A stretch of DNA of 64,000 nt, from contig JAFXZY010000076.1 of NCBI GenBank assembly GCA_017541025.1, positions 56,654 through 120,653 on the forward strand. The letters run 5' to 3'. How positions within the stretch are numbered: the first letter of the stretch is position 1; every line of letters starts with the position of its first letter. Source of the stretch: Bacteroidaceae bacterium (lineage in GTDB: Bacteria > Bacteroidota > Bacteroidia > Bacteroidales > Bacteroidaceae). The translations under genes and the position numbers were made by a program. The notes beneath the pieces were generated by a model that saw nothing but the letters and a program-made list of their open reading frames with translations, made no database searches and was not told the DNA's origin. Below are positions 5,511-17,556 of the stretch, piece after piece.

Positions 5511-5910
5511 AAATCTTCATTTGTGTGGTAGCAATAGTCTCCTCCCCAGAGACGGTCTCGCCTGTAATAATAGTAACACCGTTAACGGTGGGCCCCATTG
5601 TAATGGTAGTAACTAATGTTTCGCCTTTAACTGGCCTACGGTTCAGTCTGAAACGCTTCACTTCACCAATATATCCGACAGGCGGTTCTGTTGCTCCGGC
5701 TTGCATAGCATTATAGCCGGCAAAAGCAGATGCCGACTGTGCAATATGTTCTATTACACCCGGTTCAGCTATAGCACCGTCTGATTCAAGGAAGAAATTA
5801 TCATCCCTAATGTTAAGGCTGGTGCGAGCAATATCATCATGAGCCTCTAGCAACTCGTCAACCATCATGATTGGCGAGCGCTGAGGTATGAGATTTTTGA
5901 TATCTGTCAT
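5494..5910 (-). CDS. Hotdog-fold dehydratase of ApeP type
   Basis: 138 residues beginning MTDIKNLIPQRSPIMMVDEL, the IPQR-P-MVD signature of ApeP/beta-hydroxyacyl-ACP dehydratases in aryl-polyene clusters, followed by AEPGVIEHIAQSASAFAGY. It probably pairs with the hotdog protein encoded immediately downstream (17-base overlap). The upstream ACP gene ends 9 bases before this start. Family call is good; whether it is catalytic alone or only as a heteromer is not decidable here. Confidence 0.8.
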   Translation of the reverse strand: MTDIKNLIPQRSPIMMVDELLEAHDDIARTSLNIRDDNFFLESDGAIAEPGVIEHIAQSASAFAGYNAMQAGATEPPVGYIGEVKRFRLNRRPVKGETLVTTITMGPTVNGVTIITGETVSGEETIATTQMKIYVAGE

Positions 5911-5919
5911 GCGGTTTGA

Positions 5920-6162
5920 TTAAGCCATATGGCTCTCAATGTAATCGTAAAGATTACCAAAGGTCTTCACATTTGGCAGATCCTCTGCGGGTATCTTAAC
6001 CTTAAAAGTGTACTGTACAACAGCTACCAGGTCAACAAGACTCAGGCTGTCGAGATGCAGGGTTTGATAAATGGGGGCGTCCTCGACGATTTCTTCCTCG
6101 TTTACGTCAAACTCGTCTGTCAAAGTCTCGATTGTCTTCTCAATGATTTCTTCTCTTGTCAT
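5920..6162 (-). CDS. Acyl carrier protein
   Basis: 80 residues, acidic and helical, with the phosphopantetheine attachment motif LHLDSLSLVDL; the modified Ser is residue 39. It would carry the growing acyl chain for the neighbouring ketosynthase, reductase and dehydratases. The pathway-specific location argues against it being the housekeeping ACP. Confidence 0.92.
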   Translation of the reverse strand: MTREEIIEKTIETLTDEFDVNEEEIVEDAPIYQTLHLDSLSLVDLVAVVQYTFKVKIPAEDLPNVKTFGNLYDYIESHMA

Positions 6163-10694: not shown

Positions 10695-10725
10695 TTGTAT
10701 ATTTTACAAAAAAAACATACTTTTG
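10695..10725 (+). promoter_or_regulatory. Promoter of nnrD, fixing its start codon
   Basis: TTG (10695-10697), 20-base spacer, TACTTTTG (10718-10725). A possible upstream TTG start at 10723 lies inside the -7 box and cannot be in the message, so ATG 10741 is the start. Confidence 0.75.
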
Positions 10726-10740
10726 TGTTCAAAAGAAACA

Positions 10741-11583
10741 ATGACGAGAATGCTACCTATAACAGAAAACCTTATTTCGAGATGGTTGAAAACTCGAGAC
10801 CCTTTCAGCCATAAGGGTGATTATGGCCGTGCTTCTCTCGTTGCCGGGAGTGTTGGAATGGTCGGTGCTGCCATTCTGTCTGCCCGTGCCTGTATGCGAA
10901 GCGGCGTTGGCTTGCTCACCGTACATGTCCCAGAATGCGGATACAGCATTATCCAGCAAAGTGTTCCCGAGGCAAAATGTATTGCCGACGAACATTACAC
11001 ACACCATACTATCATAGAGATTCCCCTATATACAGACGTGATAGGGATAGGTCCTGGCATTAATCAGCACATACAGACCCATTGGGCTTTGCACAGCCTG
11101 ATGCTAAATTACCCCAAGGTCCCGATGGTTTTCGATGCCGATGCACTGAATATCTTGGCGTATAACCAGCACTGGTATCCACAGATTCCCAAAGGAAGCA
11201 TCCTCACCCCCCATCCTGGCGAGATGGAGCGACTGGGTTTAGAGCCTCAGGAAATGGCAGAAAAGTACGGTGTAGTTGTGGTGCTGAAGGGGCATCATAC
11301 TCATATCTATGTGCCAAAAGATGGTGAGGTTCTGGTTTACGAGAACACACTGCACGGAAACGCAGGGATGGCCGTAGGTGGCTCAGGCGATGTGCTAACG
11401 GGTATCATTCTGGCTTTGATGGCACAGCATTATACAGCAGAGCAAGCAGCCGTTATGGGTGTATGGATTCACGCCTTATCGGCCGACCTGGCTCTTGCCG
11501 ATGGAAACAGTATGGAATCGCTGCTTCCGTCTGATATTATCGCCCACTTGGGAGCTGCTTTCAATGCTTCCCGTTTACAATAG
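10741..11583 (+). CDS. nnrD: ADP/ATP-dependent NAD(P)H-hydrate dehydratase
   Basis: About 280 residues. Features are KGDYGRASLVAGS near the N-terminus, the DADALN motif, TPHPGEMERL and the ribokinase-like nucleotide loop NAGMAVGGSGDVLTGII. It repairs the damaged nicotinamide cofactor (6S)-NAD(P)HX in the cytoplasm. In many bacteria this domain is fused to the epimerase NnrE; here only the dehydratase half is present and no epimerase is visible nearby. The 3' end overlaps the convergent pdxT by 23 bases. Confidence 0.9.
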   Translation: MTRMLPITENLISRWLKTRDPFSHKGDYGRASLVAGSVGMVGAAILSARACMRSGVGLLTVHVPECGYSIIQQSVPEAKCIADEHYTHHTIIEIPLYTDVIGIGPGINQHIQTHWALHSLMLNYPKVPMVFDADALNILAYNQHWYPQIPKGSILTPHPGEMERLGLEPQEMAEKYGVVVVLKGHHTHIYVPKDGEVLVYENTLHGNAGMAVGGSGDVLTGIILALMAQHYTAEQAAVMGVWIHALSADLALADGNSMESLLPSDIIAHLGAAFNASRLQ

Positions 11584-12121
11584 TTTCAAGCCAATACCGG
11601 TGTACCCTCGTATCTTCGGTTAGTTCAGGATGGAAAGAGCAAGCCAACATATTGTCTTGCCGCACAGCCACTACATGATTATCCAACGTTGAAAGAATCT
11701 CTACCCTACCACCTACGCGCTCTACATAAGGCGCACGGATAAAGACCATAGGCACTTCACCTATACCTTTTATATTATGAAAAATCTGGAAACTCCCCAA
11801 CTGCCTGCCGTAGGCATTACGTTTTACCGTTATATCCATACAGCCAAGATGCTGATCGTCCAAAAGAATCATTCCAGCGCAAGTGCCAAAGACTGGAAGT
11901 CCGTTTCTGATGACCTTTTGGATTGGTTCGAAGAGTGATTCATCCTTCATCACCTTCATCATAGCCGTACTCTCACCACCTGGAAGAATAAGACCGTCAA
12001 AAGGCTGCTGCCAGTCGCTCAGATTGCGTATTAAAACACTCTCCACACACAACCGCTCCAATACCTGACAATGTTCCTCAAATGCTCCCTGCAGGGCTAA
12101 TATTGCTATCTTCGTTTTCAT
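11561..12121 (-). CDS. pdxT: Pyridoxal 5'-phosphate synthase glutaminase subunit
   Basis: 186 residues, class I glutamine amidotransferase. [10 protein letters not shown] is at the N-terminus, LPGGEST follows, the catalytic Cys sits in FGTCAGM, and the His/Glu pair is in FHPELTED. It supplies ammonia from glutamine to PdxS for de novo PLP synthesis. The start overlaps the pdxS stop by 4 bases (ATGA type), so the two are translationally coupled. Confidence 0.95.
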
Positions 12122-12990
12122 TTCCCTCTCTCTGCCATCAGCAACTCTATCTCCTGCTCGTTGATGCCGACCATTGCTTCACCTAAATCTTCACTCAATT
12201 CGGCCAGAATCTCCGGGTTGTTGTAGTTGGTGACAGCCTTCACGATAGCTTGTGCACGTTTGGCAGGATTGCCACTCTTAAAAATGCCGCTTCCTACGAA
12301 TACGCCTTCGGCACCCAACTGCATCATCAGGGCAGCATCGGCAGGCGTTGCCACACCTCCTGCAGCAAAATTCACAACGGGCAACTTGCCGTTCTCGTGA
12401 ACAAACTGCGCCAATTCGTATGGAACGCGCAGTTGCTTGGCAGCCTCATAGAGTTCATCCTCGCTCATACTTACCAACCTACGGATCTCGCTCTGCATCA
12501 TACGCATGTGTCGTACCGCCTGAATGATATCACCTGTACCGGGTTCGCCTTTTGTACGAATCATCGTTGCACCCTCGTTGATACGACGCAATGCCTCGCC
12601 TAAATCTTTTGCTCCGCAGACAAAGGGAACCTTGAACTTACGCTTATCAATGTGATAGACATCATCGGCAGGAGAAAGCACCTCGCTCTCATCTATGTAA
12701 TCAATTTCGATAGCCTCTAGTATCTGCGCCTCTGCGAAATGGCCAATACGACATTTTGCCATCACAGGAATGGTTACAGCCTCCTGTATTCCTTTAATCA
12801 TTTTAGGATCGCTCATGCGACTAACACCACCTGCTGCACGTATGTCGGCAGGTATTCGTTCCAATGCCATTACAGCACAGGCTCCGGCAGCTTCGGCTAT
12901 CTTTGCTTGCTCTGGGGTTGTTACATCCATTATCACTCCGCCCTTCAGCATCTGTGCCAGGTTGCGGTTCAATTGCGTTCTATCTTCCAT
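12118..12990 (-). CDS. pdxS: Pyridoxal 5'-phosphate synthase lyase subunit
   Basis: 290 residues from ATG 12990 ([15 protein letters not shown]), the usual PdxS length and N-terminus. Typical segments are [43 protein letters not shown] and the phosphate loop [14 protein letters not shown]. It condenses pentose and triose phosphates with ammonia into PLP. A longer reading from 13032 is possible but a TACCTTTG -7 box lies inside it, so 12990 is preferred. The gene is divergent from the kinase-AraC fusion, a likely regulator. Confidence 0.95.
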
Positions 12991-13017
12991 TTTTTTTAAT
13001 TTTTGAGTTTTCTGCGA

Positions 13018-13048
13018 CAAAGGTACACCCAAGTGTCTATGCCATAAA
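13018..13048 (-). promoter_or_regulatory. pdxST promoter
   Basis: Minus-strand TTTA (13045-13048), 19-base spacer, TACCTTTG (13018-13025). It is separated from the divergent promoter of the kinase-AraC gene by under 100 bases, so one regulator could act on both. Confidence 0.7.
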
Positions 13049-13114
13049 TAATCTCTTCCTATACGGCCAAACTTTCCTCATAAAGAAGAAATATTGTAGA
13101 AAACGGAATACTTA

Positions 13115-13146
13115 TTTGGGTAAACGAGGCATTTACATTACCTTTG
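13115..13146 (+). promoter_or_regulatory. Promoter of the kinase-AraC fusion gene
   Basis: TTTG (13115-13118), 20-base spacer, TACCTTTG (13139-13146), 19 bases before ATG 13166. Confidence 0.75.
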
Positions 13147-13165
13147 CATCGGGAAAGAAAGAAAT

Positions 13166-14242
13166 ATGAAGGCGGTACTTTGCATAAATGGTTCAGACAG
13201 TATGGGACACGCGGGCATTCAGGCAGACGTGAGAACCATCAAGGACTTGGGAGGCTACGCGGTAACAGTCGTTACGGCTGTAACCATTCAGAACTCTATG
13301 GGCATTACCAGCGTACACCAATTGCCCACCAATCTGGTATTGGGTCAGCTGAGAGCTGTTTACGAGGAAATGCTACCTCAAGCCATAAAGGTAGGAATGA
13401 TGGACAATGCCACAACCATCAGTTCTATAGCCAAGGAGATTGTCGGTTGCTCCAATATTATCTGCTCGCCTGTGATATTAGCTTCTCACGGAGGCTTGCT
13501 GATGTCCAACGATTCGCTGCAGGCATACCGCCAACACCTCTTCCCTATCTGCCGAGTACTAATTATAAAATGTACGGATGCTGAAATTCTGTTGGGCCAG
13601 CGCATCAGTACGGATGCCGATATGTCAGAAGCAGCAAATCTTCTGCACGATATGGGGCCTGAGTGGGTACTGCTTCGTGGTGGTACATTCGCCAAAGGAC
13701 GCATCAATGCATTACTTTCAGGGCCCGATAGCCAAAAGTATTTTTCTTCGGTAAATATAGAAGGATGGCAGCGTCATGGCGTTGGAGGTACTCTTTCTAC
13801 CGCTATTGCCGCCCGTCTGGCACAGGAAGACGATGTGCCCACAGCAATAACCAATGCCCACAACTACATGCACAGCCAAGTGGTTTATGCCTCGGCACAA
13901 CCCAGGTCGTTACAGCCACACAATCTGTACAATCGATTTATGACGTTACTTTCACAGCATTATGCAACAGCGCACGATGTTTCCTTCTATGCTGCGCAGC
14001 TTTCAATTTCTACGCGATACTTGTCCCAGATTACCAACGTTGTCTGTGGTCGGTCGCCCAAGCAAGTAATAGATGATTACCTGATTCAGGAGTGCGAGCA
14101 ATTACTCTCCACTACCTCGCTTACGATACAACAGATTTCCAATCAGTTGGGATTCACGACCCAGATTGCCTTTGCCAAGTTCTTTAAGAGCCGGAAGGGA
14201 TGCTCTCCGACCGTTTTCCGCGACGGTAGAATTCTTCGTTAA
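13166..14242 (+). CDS. Degenerate ThiD/PdxK-like kinase domain fused to AraC-type HTH
   Basis: 358 residues. Residues 1-240 follow the hydroxymethylpyrimidine/pyridoxine kinase fold (INGSDSMGHAGIQADVRTI near the N-terminus, VTAVTIQNSMG, IKVGMMDN). Residues about 262-350 are an AraC-type double helix-turn-helix (ISTRYLSQITN, then LTIQQISNQLGF and FKSRKGCSPTVFR). Catalytic signatures are altered. The ThiD anion-hole motif GTGCT, with its catalytic Cys, reads GVGGT at 205-209. The usual DPVM reads SPVI, and TPN-x-x-EA reads KCTDAE. Being divergent from pdxST, it is likely a regulator that binds a B6 or HMP-like ligand (inference) rather than a working kinase. Its stop overlaps the convergent S41 gene by 4 bases. 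Confidence 0.85.
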   Translation: MKAVLCINGSDSMGHAGIQADVRTIKDLGGYAVTVVTAVTIQNSMGITSVHQLPTNLVLGQLRAVYEEMLPQAIKVGMMDNATTISSIAKEIVGCSNIICSPVILASHGGLLMSNDSLQAYRQHLFPICRVLIIKCTDAEILLGQRISTDADMSEAANLLHDMGPEWVLLRGGTFAKGRINALLSGPDSQKYFSSVNIEGWQRHGVGGTLSTAIAARLAQEDDVPTAITNAHNYMHSQVVYASAQPRSLQPHNLYNRFMTLLSQHYATAHDVSFYAAQLSISTRYLSQITNVVCGRSPKQVIDDYLIQECEQLLSTTSLTIQQISNQLGFTTQIAFAKFFKSRKGCSPTVFRDGRILR

Positions 14243-17200
14243 AGTTCCTTCAATAGCTCACGTACGGCGGCCTCCAACTGAAGGTCGGTTCCCTTGACAA
14301 CTGTCTCGGGTCGGTTTAGGATGTAAACATCAGGCTCCAACTGCGTATTCTCCAGATAAGAACCGTCGGGCAACTGATAGCCAATAACAGGTACACCGAA
14401 TACCAATGAAGGATCTTGCAATGTTTCCCAGTTCACAGAACTCATGGTACCGGGAACAGGAGCACCAACCAGTTTACCTAACTTCTGATGGCTATACACC
14501 CAGGGTGTCCCGTGCGCATTGCTGTAGTTGCTCTCGCATTGCAACATAATGCTGGGATGGTTGTAACGTCTGCTAGGCATATCGCAAACTTCTCTGCCGC
14601 GAATTACTTGCGTAAAATACTTTTTTCCCGAGAACAGGATCTCTATATCCTCATGGAGACGACCGCCTCCGTTATAGCGGGTATCGATGACAATGCCCTC
14701 CTTCAGATTGTACTTACCTAAGATGTCTGAATAAACATCGCGGAAACTGGCATCGTCCATACCTTCGATGTGTACATAACCCAAACGGCCGTTGGAGAGG
14801 CGTTCCACCTCAGCTGCTCTGCTCTTTATCCAACGTTTGTACAACAGGTCTGATTCTTCGGAACGACTGACGGGAAGTACCACTTCATCCCATGTGCCGG
14901 CACTACCCTTCAGGCTTACCAGCGTCTTCTTACCTTTGCATTGGTTCAAGAGTTGGGACAGATCTGTGTCCTTGGTTATAGGCTGTCCGTTGATAGCAGT
15001 TATCATATCGCCTGCCTTAACCTTGCTTTTGGCCTTAAAGAACGGTCCCTCTTCCAACACGGCAGTAATCTTTATACCTTCTGTTGCTTCAGATAAGTCA
15101 TACAGCAAGCCCAAGCTGGCTGTAGCATCGCCCTTGGCTGGGTGACTATACCTTCCACCAGTATGACTTACGTTCAGTTCACCCAAAAGTTCGCTCAGCA
15201 TTTCGGCATAGTCGTAGTTGTTGGCAATATGAGGCAAGAAGCGAGCATAGTTCTGAACCATCATATCCCAATCGCAACCGTTATAATCGGTACGGAAAAT
15301 CTTCTTGTTTATCTGCTTGGCTATGTGGCGCAACATATATTCGCGCTCGGCAGCAAGGTCCAGTTTCATCTGGGCACTATAGGTAATGGCTGTTGTCTTA
15401 TCGCCCTTCTCGATCTTCTTCATGCTGCTGCCCAACGAGTACAGATTGCCGTCCTTATCCATCTGTAGCACACCGCTTCCGCCTTTACTGAGCAACTTGG
15501 TTTCGTGTTTGCGCAAATCCATCTTCCACAGGTCGGGCGAACCTTCAAAGGCCGAAAAGTAATACAGATTCTCCCCGTCCTTGCTCACAATGGCATCACC
15601 CAAACGGCTACTGTTTGGTGTCAGTCGGACAATGCGGTCCTCTATGTTCTCAAACTCTATTGCCAGGACCTTGGCAGAATCGGCATTCTCTTTTTTATTG
15701 TCTTTCTTCTCTTCCTTCTTGCTATCGTTATCGTTCTTCTTCTTCCCGTTATCGTTACCGTTATCGTTCTTCTTCTCATTTTTCTTTTCCAATTCCTTCA
15801 AAAGAGCATAGTCTTCTGCAGAAAGACGATAGCGGTCGTAAGCATCCTGCGTTAGGAAAGCCAGAAACACATCCATCTGACTGCCCCACGATGCGTGACT
15901 ACGCATACCATAGCGTTCGCTCTCGAAGAGGATTGCCTTGCCGTCCATAACCCAACGGGGTCTTCCACTCATATAACCACTCTGCGTAATAGGATGAATC
16001 TCACCACCTTCGGCACTAACGATTCCCTGGTCGGTATATGGGTCACGCTTATTGGCGATAAAACTAAGGACGAACCACTTACCGTCTGGGCTCCATTCAA
16101 AATCGAACCCACCGTCCTGACGATACCATTTACTACCGTCTGTTACTTGCGTAATCTTCTTGGTCTTCAGATCAACCACCTTCAGTTTGATACGATCTTC
16201 GATGAAGGCCAGCTTCTTGCCGTCAGGACTGTATTTGGGACTTTGACGCTCCACCTGAGAGAAGTCGGGCTTACCATCCAACTTCAGTTCGGGCAGTTCA
16301 GGGAAAACGCTTTCCTCCTTAATCAATGTAGCATTGGCAAAGTTCAGGTCTTCGTCTCTTACGATGCTGGCTGTATAGAGTTGCCAGTTGCCATTTCGTT
16401 CTGAAGCATAAACAATGGTACGACCATCGGGTGCAAAATCCACATCTGCTTCAGCGCCAGCGGTCTGAGAGATTCTTCTGGTAGTTGCATATTCTACGCT
16501 GGTAACAAACACCTCGCCTCTTACGATAAAGGCGATTTGCTTACCATCCTTACTTACAACTGACTGACGGGCACCACTCGAGAAAGTCAGATCAGAAATT
16601 ACAGGTTCATCGTCGCGAGTAAGGGTGATATTCAGTTTCCTGGGCTTCTCGCTCCCTTTCTGCGTATAGATTTCTCCATTAAAGGTATAGCAGAGTAAGC
16701 CGTTCTTGGCAGAACTGAGGAAACGAACCGGATGTGTCTTAAAGTTGGTAACAGCCTGAGGGTCTTTAGCTTTGGTGGCTCCTGACTGGGCAGCACAACT
16801 GTACACATTCATACTGCCGCCATTGCGCTCGCTTAAGAAATAAAGCGTCTTGCCGTCGACACTTAATACAGGATTACGGTCTTCGCCTGCATGTTCTGTT
16901 AAATTGGTGTGCTGCTGACTGGCAGCATCGTAGAACCAAATATCTCGAGTAATAGATGAGGTATGATGCTTGCGCCATTCATCTTCGTAACCCTTACGGT
17001 CCTGATAATAGAAACTCTTTCCGTCGGAGGCAAGACTTATCATTTCGGCAGGCGAAGCCAATATCTGTAACGTTCTTCCTCCCTTTACAGACACCTTATA
17101 CAACTCAGGCAAACGACTTGAGGGGAACATCACACTCTCTGCAGGATCTTGGATATTAGCACCAAAAATCACAAATTTCCCGTCTGGCGTAAAAGCCTGA

Positions 17201-17556
17201 GGAACCTCTGCCGTACTGTTATAGGTAAGACGGGTTGCTGAACCGCCTTCAGCAGACATCACGAAAACATCCATATTGCCGTGCCTATCGCTCGAGAAGG
17301 CAATCTGCTTGCCGTCGGCACTCCATATCGGTGAACATTCATAGCTGTCCTGCGTTGTCAGCTGAACAGCCGTTCCGCCTTCTGCCGATACTTTATAGAT
17401 ATCACCCTTGTAGCAAAAAAGAACTTGCGAACCATCAGGGCTCAACATAACATCTCTCAACCAAAGCGGTGTGATTGCCTCATTAGCCATCACATCTTGC
17501 GCTGCGCCAATCAACATAGTCATCAGTGCAATAGCAACACCATTTCTTGTCTTCAT
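14239..17556 (-). CDS. Tricorn-like S41 peptidase with beta-propeller and PDZ domain
   Basis: 1105 residues with a signal peptide (to about residue 24). The first 560 or so residues contain repeated WD40-like PD40 blades (SPDGSQVLFCYKGDIYKVSAEGG and related). A charged Lys/Asn/Asp/Glu linker follows (about 590-650), then a tricorn core, a PDZ domain (VKAGDMITAINGQPI) and a C-terminal S41 protease with DTRYNGGG and the probable catalytic Ser in ESNYSNAHGTPW. It likely trims peptides in the periplasm. The linker is encoded partly by 6-base repeats (NDNG units). It has its own promoter. Confidence 0.88.
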   Translation of the reverse strand: MKTRNGVAIALMTMLIGAAQDVMANEAITPLWLRDVMLSPDGSQVLFCYKGDIYKVSAEGGTAVQLTTQDSYECSPIWSADGKQIAFSSDRHGNMDVFVMSAEGGSATRLTYNSTAEVPQAFTPDGKFVIFGANIQDPAESVMFPSSRLPELYKVSVKGGRTLQILASPAEMISLASDGKSFYYQDRKGYEDEWRKHHTSSITRDIWFYDAASQQHTNLTEHAGEDRNPVLSVDGKTLYFLSERNGGSMNVYSCAAQSGATKAKDPQAVTNFKTHPVRFLSSAKNGLLCYTFNGEIYTQKGSEKPRKLNITLTRDDEPVISDLTFSSGARQSVVSKDGKQIAFIVRGEVFVTSVEYATTRRISQTAGAEADVDFAPDGRTIVYASERNGNWQLYTASIVRDEDLNFANATLIKEESVFPELPELKLDGKPDFSQVERQSPKYSPDGKKLAFIEDRIKLKVVDLKTKKITQVTDGSKWYRQDGGFDFEWSPDGKWFVLSFIANKRDPYTDQGIVSAEGGEIHPITQSGYMSGRPRWVMDGKAILFESERYGMRSHASWGSQMDVFLAFLTQDAYDRYRLSAEDYALLKELEKKNEKKNDNGNDNGKKKNDNDSKKEEKKDNKKENADSAKVLAIEFENIEDRIVRLTPNSSRLGDAIVSKDGENLYYFSAFEGSPDLWKMDLRKHETKLLSKGGSGVLQMDKDGNLYSLGSSMKKIEKGDKTTAITYSAQMKLDLAAEREYMLRHIAKQINKKIFRTDYNGCDWDMMVQNYARFLPHIANNYDYAEMLSELLGELNVSHTGGRYSHPAKGDATASLGLLYDLSEATEGIKITAVLEEGPFFKAKSKVKAGDMITAINGQPITKDTDLSQLLNQCKGKKTLVSLKGSAGTWDEVVLPVSRSEESDLLYKRWIKSRAAEVERLSNGRLGYVHIEGMDDASFRDVYSDILGKYNLKEGIVIDTRYNGGGRLHEDIEILFSGKKYFTQVIRGREVCDMPSRRYNHPSIMLQCESNYSNAHGTPWVYSHQKLGKLVGAPVPGTMSSVNWETLQDPSLVFGVPVIGYQLPDGSYLENTQLEPDVYILNRPETVVKGTDLQLEAAVRELLKEL
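15723..15776. repeat. Hexamer-type CGTTAT repeats inside the S41 gene
   Basis: Interrupted CGTTAT/CGTTAC/CGTTCT units in the coding strand complement, encoding the NDNGNDNG part of the charged linker. Same 6-base class as at 18064, 36103 and 61583. Confidence 0.7.

Follow-up and report, generated by a model that had tools for sequence, protein, structure and literature searches.

Here we describe a predicted regulator of pyridoxal 5′-phosphate (PLP) synthase, encoded in a 64,000-nucleotide stretch of the genome of a Bacteroidaceae bacterium (assembly GCA_017541025.1, contig JAFXZY010000076.1, positions 56,654 to 120,653 of the forward strand; G000:C14:56654-120653 in our collection), hereafter referred to as the window. 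The coding sequence at window positions 13166..14242 (+) specifies a protein of 358 amino acids (aa) in which a ThiD-like kinase domain is fused to an AraC-type helix-turn-helix (HTH) domain, and it stands next to the PLP synthase genes pdxS and pdxT. From the combined evidence we are fairly confident that this protein represents a one-component, kinase-derived, vitamin B6-sensing regulator of PLP synthase that is unrelated to MocR/PdxR. Such fusions are found in rumen, oral and gut Bacteroidales and most likely constitute a kind of B6 sensor and transcriptional switch that has not been described before.

The two-domain architecture proposed in the first-pass annotation is borne out by Pfam, which places Phos_pyr_kin at residues 11-242 (13196..13891, E 9.9e-58) and HTH_18 at residues 275-353 (13988..14224, E 1e-17). 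HTH_18 scores 64.6 bits against a cut-off of 33.6, and the C-terminal double HTH characteristic of AraC/XylS proteins is present. Phos_pyr_kin, HTH_18 and HTH_AraC are the only Pfam matches at E <= 0.001; at that threshold neither the GntR HTH nor the class I aminotransferase-like domain of MocR/PdxR was found. The kinase-like domain had been described as "ThiD/PdxK-like", of which only the ThiD part stands. By both sequence and fold it belongs with the ThiD / hydroxymethylpyrimidine (phosphate) (HMP(-P)) kinases (TIGR00097), with a score of 191.7 near the cut-off of 204.95, and in a structure comparison with ThiD and PdxK it was ThiD that ranked first. The NCBIfam scores and the fold ranking led us to discard descent from PdxK-type (COG2240) kinases. 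In a phylogenetic tree the fusions form a single clade separate from standalone ThiD.

Every catalytic motif that had been reported as altered is indeed altered in the translation and relative to solved ThiD structures. The catalytic loop reads HGVGGT (residues 204-209, 13775..13792), with GVGGT (205-209) in place of GTGCT and Gly208 at the position of the catalytic Cys. DPVM is replaced by SPVI (residues 101-104, 13466..13477), Ser101 taking the place of the Asp of DPV, and TPNxxEAE is replaced by IIKCTDAE (residues 133-140, 13562..13585), with Lys135 for the Asn of TPN and a conservative change of the motif's Glu to Asp. To place these changes in the family, we collected fusions through a genome search, a scan of named genomes (in which 50 of 80 kept loci were fusions) and the retrieval of pdxS loci, and compared 119 distinct fusions with 37 standalone homologues. 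The catalytic Cys position is occupied by Asn in 65 fusions, Gly in 42, Ser in seven and Ala in five, and by Cys or Asp in none, whereas the standalone homologues have Cys (36) or Asp (1). Asn of TPN survives in a single fusion, the position being Lys or Arg in 77 of 119, while all 37 standalone proteins retain it. The DPV Asp is kept in 45 of the 119 fusions versus 37 of 37 standalone proteins. Since the dead positions occur family-wide, the altered motifs of the window are not a matter of chance. Judged from these residues the fusion family appears to be dead as a kinase, as the first-pass annotation had suspected for the window protein.

The substrate side of the domain has a different fate. 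The motif GSDSMGHAGIQAD (residues 9-21, 13190..13228) is retained, and in the family Gly9, Ser10, Asp11, Gly17 and Asp21 are each present in 118 of the 119 fusions; the one other row has a gap at these positions. Lys75 of VKxG (13388..13390) is likewise kept in 118 of 119, His204-Gly205 in all 119 and Gln42 in 101. We take these positions to line the HMP or pyridoxal pocket known from ThiD structures. A lobe of about 60 aa carrying the TPN/KGG region is missing in 55 of 120 fusions and has been deleted repeatedly; in the long form, which includes the lobe, the fold is intact.

This pattern bears on two alternative explanations. If the kinase-like domain were a pure dimerisation or structural scaffold without ligand, the regulator would be constitutive or would sense nothing through it. 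The decay of the catalytic and TPN/KGG-side residues and the loss of the lobe in nearly half of the members would suit a scaffold. However, the decay is selective, leaving the substrate-side residues near-invariant, and conservation towards the near relatives compared is much the same for the kinase part as for the HTH part (80/81, 75/78, 80/77 and 68/61 %); we therefore regard a scaffold as unlikely. Alternatively, the fusion could be a still-active B6/HMP kinase that also regulates, bifunctional in the manner of NadR; the intact long-form fold, the TIGR00097 score and the partial survival of the DPV Asp speak for this. We reject this explanation as very unlikely, given the absence of the catalytic Cys/Asp from all 119 fusions, the single remaining TPN Asn and the many members without the lobe. 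In addition, the window genome has a second, standalone Phos_pyr_kin gene (G000:C88:69128-69823, locus L094) with GTGD at the catalytic loop.

A retired kinase acting as a sensor beside pdxST, as first proposed for the window, is supported by this family-wide catalytic loss together with genomic linkage. Homologues do adjoin pdxST: among 399 genomes of the window's family, 86 have pdxS and 313 do not, and the fusion occurs in 75 of the 86, lying less than 800 bp from pdxS in 63 (60 on the same strand and three divergent, including the window). Initial searches of the family and order samples scored the five best candidates per genome, and later checks of the family scored all. No fusion was seen in the 313 genomes lacking pdxS, where the 14 genomes with at least two profile matches were checked singly and low single matches were not inspected individually; all full-length fusion matches listed in the family searches come from pdxS genomes. 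A sample of 393 genomes at the level of the order added nine genomes with ten fusion loci, seven of them with pdxST, among the best five candidates per genome. Of the 11 pdxS genomes without a fusion, some are 84-91 % complete; by eye, and without a profile test, no MocR gene is evident beside pdxS in the nine of these 11 loci inspected.

Genome context also weighs on the nature of the ligand. The first-pass annotation had named HMP as an alternative, and a regulator that kept the ThiD specificity for HMP or a thiamine precursor would couple B6 synthesis to B1 status. The descent of the domain from ThiD and the frequent retention of Gln42 speak for this possibility, and the pathways of HMP and B6 are close to each other in metabolism. 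Yet thiC was found in only ten of 16 chosen fusion genomes; the six in which it was not found include the window genome, which is 84 % complete, and two close relatives. In none of the ten is thiC close to the fusion, for it lies on another contig or at a distance of more than 300 kb. Six of these ten have a standalone ThiD match about 1 kb from thiC; by gene position, the standalone copy in these six genomes pairs with thiamine, and B6 is left to the retired copy. The linkage of the fusion is to pdxST, and Ala16, invariant in the 37 standalone proteins, has become Ser in 87 of 119 fusions. Genome context makes an HMP ligand unlikely.

Further evidence for control of pdxST comes from a promoter motif. 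De novo search of 105 of the 119 regulator upstream regions, near-duplicates having been removed, returned the motif TTTTnTTTGTCAAAAnGGGAACAttATTTT with a log-likelihood of 670 versus 102-108 for shuffled sequences, and of 654 versus 131-151 for dinucleotide shuffles searched with equal effort. Its core of about 17 bp, TTTGTCAAAAnGGGAAC, stands before the regulator at a fixed phase to the -7 box of the -7/-33 promoter consensus. A -7-like box (5/6 matches to TAnnTTTG) follows at an offset of 50 or 51 in 56 of 63 distinct sites upstream of the regulator and in 22 of 31 sites upstream of pdxS, the next best pair of offsets accounting for 14 and seven sites, respectively. We infer that the phased motif would be the operator of the regulator.

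The distribution of the motif before pdxS follows the arrangement of the locus. For this comparison 117 of 135 pdxS loci were classified, omitting 12 with identical upstream DNA, five divergent loci and one with a gap of 51-79 bp; sites were scored on the sense strand only, and for the background (n=499) the higher-scoring of the two strands was used. Of the 58 loci in which pdxS is located elsewhere or has an upstream region to itself, 30 exceed the 95 % background level and 18 the 99 % level. By contrast, none of 48 operonic loci, with pdxS within 50 bp of the regulator, and none of 11 genomes without a fusion exceed the 95 % level. Separate loci differ from fusion-less ones (Mann-Whitney, 0.002) and from operonic ones (4e-10), values that are not corrected for relatedness. 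In roughly every second separate locus, the phased motif thus goes with pdxS.

The window illustrates this promoter organization in a divergent setting. The conserved start of pdxS is the ATG at 12990, although the open reading frame (ORF) list runs on to a TTG at 13032; the intergenic region common to pdxS and the regulator is therefore 12991-13165, or 175 bp. The first-pass description of a short intergenic region shared with divergent pdxST holds for the window, but the divergent layout is atypical, being found in three of 63 close loci. The predicted operator facing the regulator (13088..13117, +; core 13093-13109) ranks first in the intergenic region, and the regulator promoter has its -7 box TACCTTTG (13139..13146, +) 51 nt from the operator start at 13088. 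Facing pdxS, a weakly scoring predicted operator (13047..13076, -; core 13055-13071) ranks second of 156 positions; it starts at 13076 (-), and the -7 box TACCTTTG of pdxS (13018..13025, -) begins at 13025, giving the same offset of 51. No TTTG -33 box is present upstream of this pdxS box, which would fit an activator-dependent promoter. With a motif trained without the window's clade, the top plus-strand site lies at 13089 and scores 12.0, against -7.3 for the runner-up. The highest minus-strand score, 7.4 at 13128, belongs to a site overlapping the one at 13089, and the pdxS-facing site is second with -0.8. Both the regulator-facing and the pdxS-facing site stand at 51 in five of seven divergent loci (the window and four members of its clade), ranked 1 to 3 among all intergenic positions, and the predicted operator block is conserved across these five. 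In another divergent locus, L305, three motif copies with scores of 15-16 lie between pdxS and the regulator (5889-5983).

Several observations count against the B6-sensing regulator that we propose. With respect to the operators, the pdxS-facing site of the window scores -0.6 and is singled out by its position, exactly 51 nt from the box; among the other divergent loci, L303 has the regulator-facing site only and L305 has neither site at 51. Below the 95 % background level are 28 of the 58 separate pdxS loci, several of which have a strong regulator site instead. No site scoring at least 12.4 precedes either gene in 25 of 119 fusion loci, and 15 more fusion loci, without pdxS in the locus, have no such site before the regulator. 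Genome-wide, the motif is not specific: the window's own genome gives 47 matches at three mismatches versus 44 for the reversed-pattern control, and the IUPAC pattern at two mismatches shows no clear excess over its reverse in ten genomes; we therefore claim no wider regulon. Matches with zero or one mismatch include regulator or pdxS promoters in genomes G189, G115 and G381, and a zero-mismatch match in G319 lies about 14 kb from pdxS.

Other contrary observations concern the pocket and the linkage. In addition to the Ala16 change, Met78, found in 36 of 37 standalone proteins, is Leu in 61 of 119 fusions, and the pocket loop bearing Gln42 is deleted in one subclade (L069, L070, L075, L083, L084 and L085), in which no motif was found before the regulator. 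When 19 fusion genomes were searched by way of their loci, six had no pdxS. Two of the 75 genomes counted above, G384 (by tree) and G407 (by sequence), have only fusions that seemingly belong to a subgroup not linked to pdxS. Palleniella is a further exception, in which the fusion is separate from pdxST and has a pyridoxamine kinase gene about 3 kb away.

The subgroup in question appears to consist of short fusions without pdxS in the locus (L134, L135, L136, L139, L147, L148, L282, L304 and L312), and in six of the genomes concerned pdxS is missing altogether. L282 and four others form a clade, and the rest are assigned by sequence resemblance; among the members listed, the catalytic loop is HGRCNE, HGMCNE or HGRSNE. 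No common theme among neighbouring genes was found in seven of the nine loci. These fusions may regulate the salvage of B6 or some other process.

For the members linked to pdxST, we propose the following mechanism. A ThiD-type vitamin kinase that lost phosphotransfer and kept its substrate-side pocket would serve as the sensor, joined to an AraC HTH that would bind one site of about 17 bp, which abuts the -33 region and keeps a constant spacing to the -7 box. Its targets would be the pdxST promoter and the regulator's own promoter. A B6 vitamer would occupy the old substrate pocket; most likely it would be PLP, which PdxST produces directly and which is favoured for that reason. By analogy with PdxR, the apo form would activate transcription and PLP would switch the regulator off, though the sign could be the reverse.

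In several species the apo form of PdxR activates pdxST and PLP acts as an anti-activator (PMC5320631). PdxR and the fusion would share the control of pdxST, an often adjacent gene and an enzyme-derived, B6-binding sensor (PMC5320631 for PdxR; predicted for the fusion). For the fusion, the link to pdxST is seen in 63 of the 86 genomes with pdxS, at a distance of no more than 800 bp. The two differ in the sensor, an aminotransferase in PdxR and a ThiD/ribokinase fold in the fusion, and in the HTH, which is GntR in the former and AraC in the latter. A study from 2016 that compares B6 regulators covers MocR proteins, and AraC is not mentioned in its text as consulted (PMC5320631). Full-text literature search found no description of a ThiD-AraC fusion or of an AraC-type pdxST regulator, which is not proof of absence. 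Compared with ThiD and ThiD2-type pyridoxal kinases, the fusion has the fold, sequence ancestry and substrate-side residues in common, but those enzymes possess the catalytic Cys/Asp, DPV and TPN and have no HTH.

Regulators that combine an HTH with a sensor derived from an enzyme are already known. Archaeal ThiR, an HTH joined to a ThiN thiamine phosphate synthase-like domain, is likewise a vitamin regulator made of a biosynthetic enzyme domain, though the enzyme, the vitamin and the domain of life are different. The ROK repressors (NagC, Mlc) and NadR are kinase-derived or kinase-fused regulators like the fusion, but their kinase folds are unrelated to ThiD. The pairing of ThiD and AraC for B6 appears to be new.

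We lean towards a broader reading, in which a single retirement of ThiD would have given rise to a Bacteroidales class of B6 sensors that, with catalysis lost, shed the lobe repeatedly and arrived convergently at a pocket reduced to the minimum for B6. These AraC-type switches, probably single-site activators at a rigidly phased promoter, would be the main control of pdxST in Prevotella-side lineages, instead of a MocR-type PdxR. The B6 sensors that we found described so far are aminotransferase-like MocR proteins, to which the fusion, if the proposal is true, would add a second and unrelated solution. It would also explain how bacteria common in the rumen, mouth and gut set their PLP synthesis, and render a missing regulon testable. 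The series from full to repeatedly deleted lobes would offer a natural set for asking which part of a kinase must be kept for it to sense its substrate. Annotation by the kinase domain only would label the fusions HMP kinases and thus miscount thiamine pathways.

The remaining features of the locus are as follows. pdxS, the PLP synthase subunit, occupies 12118..12990 (-; Pfam SOR_SNZ, E 9e-109), and pdxT, the glutaminase subunit, 11561..12121 (-; SNO, E 4.8e-54). An NAD(P)H-hydrate dehydratase gene with a Carb_kinase match (10723-11583) is convergent to pdxT with an ORF overlap of 23 bp, and a large gene (14239-17556), protease-like by eye, is convergent to the regulator with an overlap of 4 bp. 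In the tree, the standalone L094 protein, a member of the HMP-kinase family with GTGD rather than GTGCT, forms a long branch. In Hoylesella enoeca JCM 12259, pdxS is apparently split into two ORFs in that assembly (L123, 6993-7744). A region near-identical to the window is present on contig CADCIP010000002.1, from a metagenome-assembled genome of an uncultured Bacteroidales.
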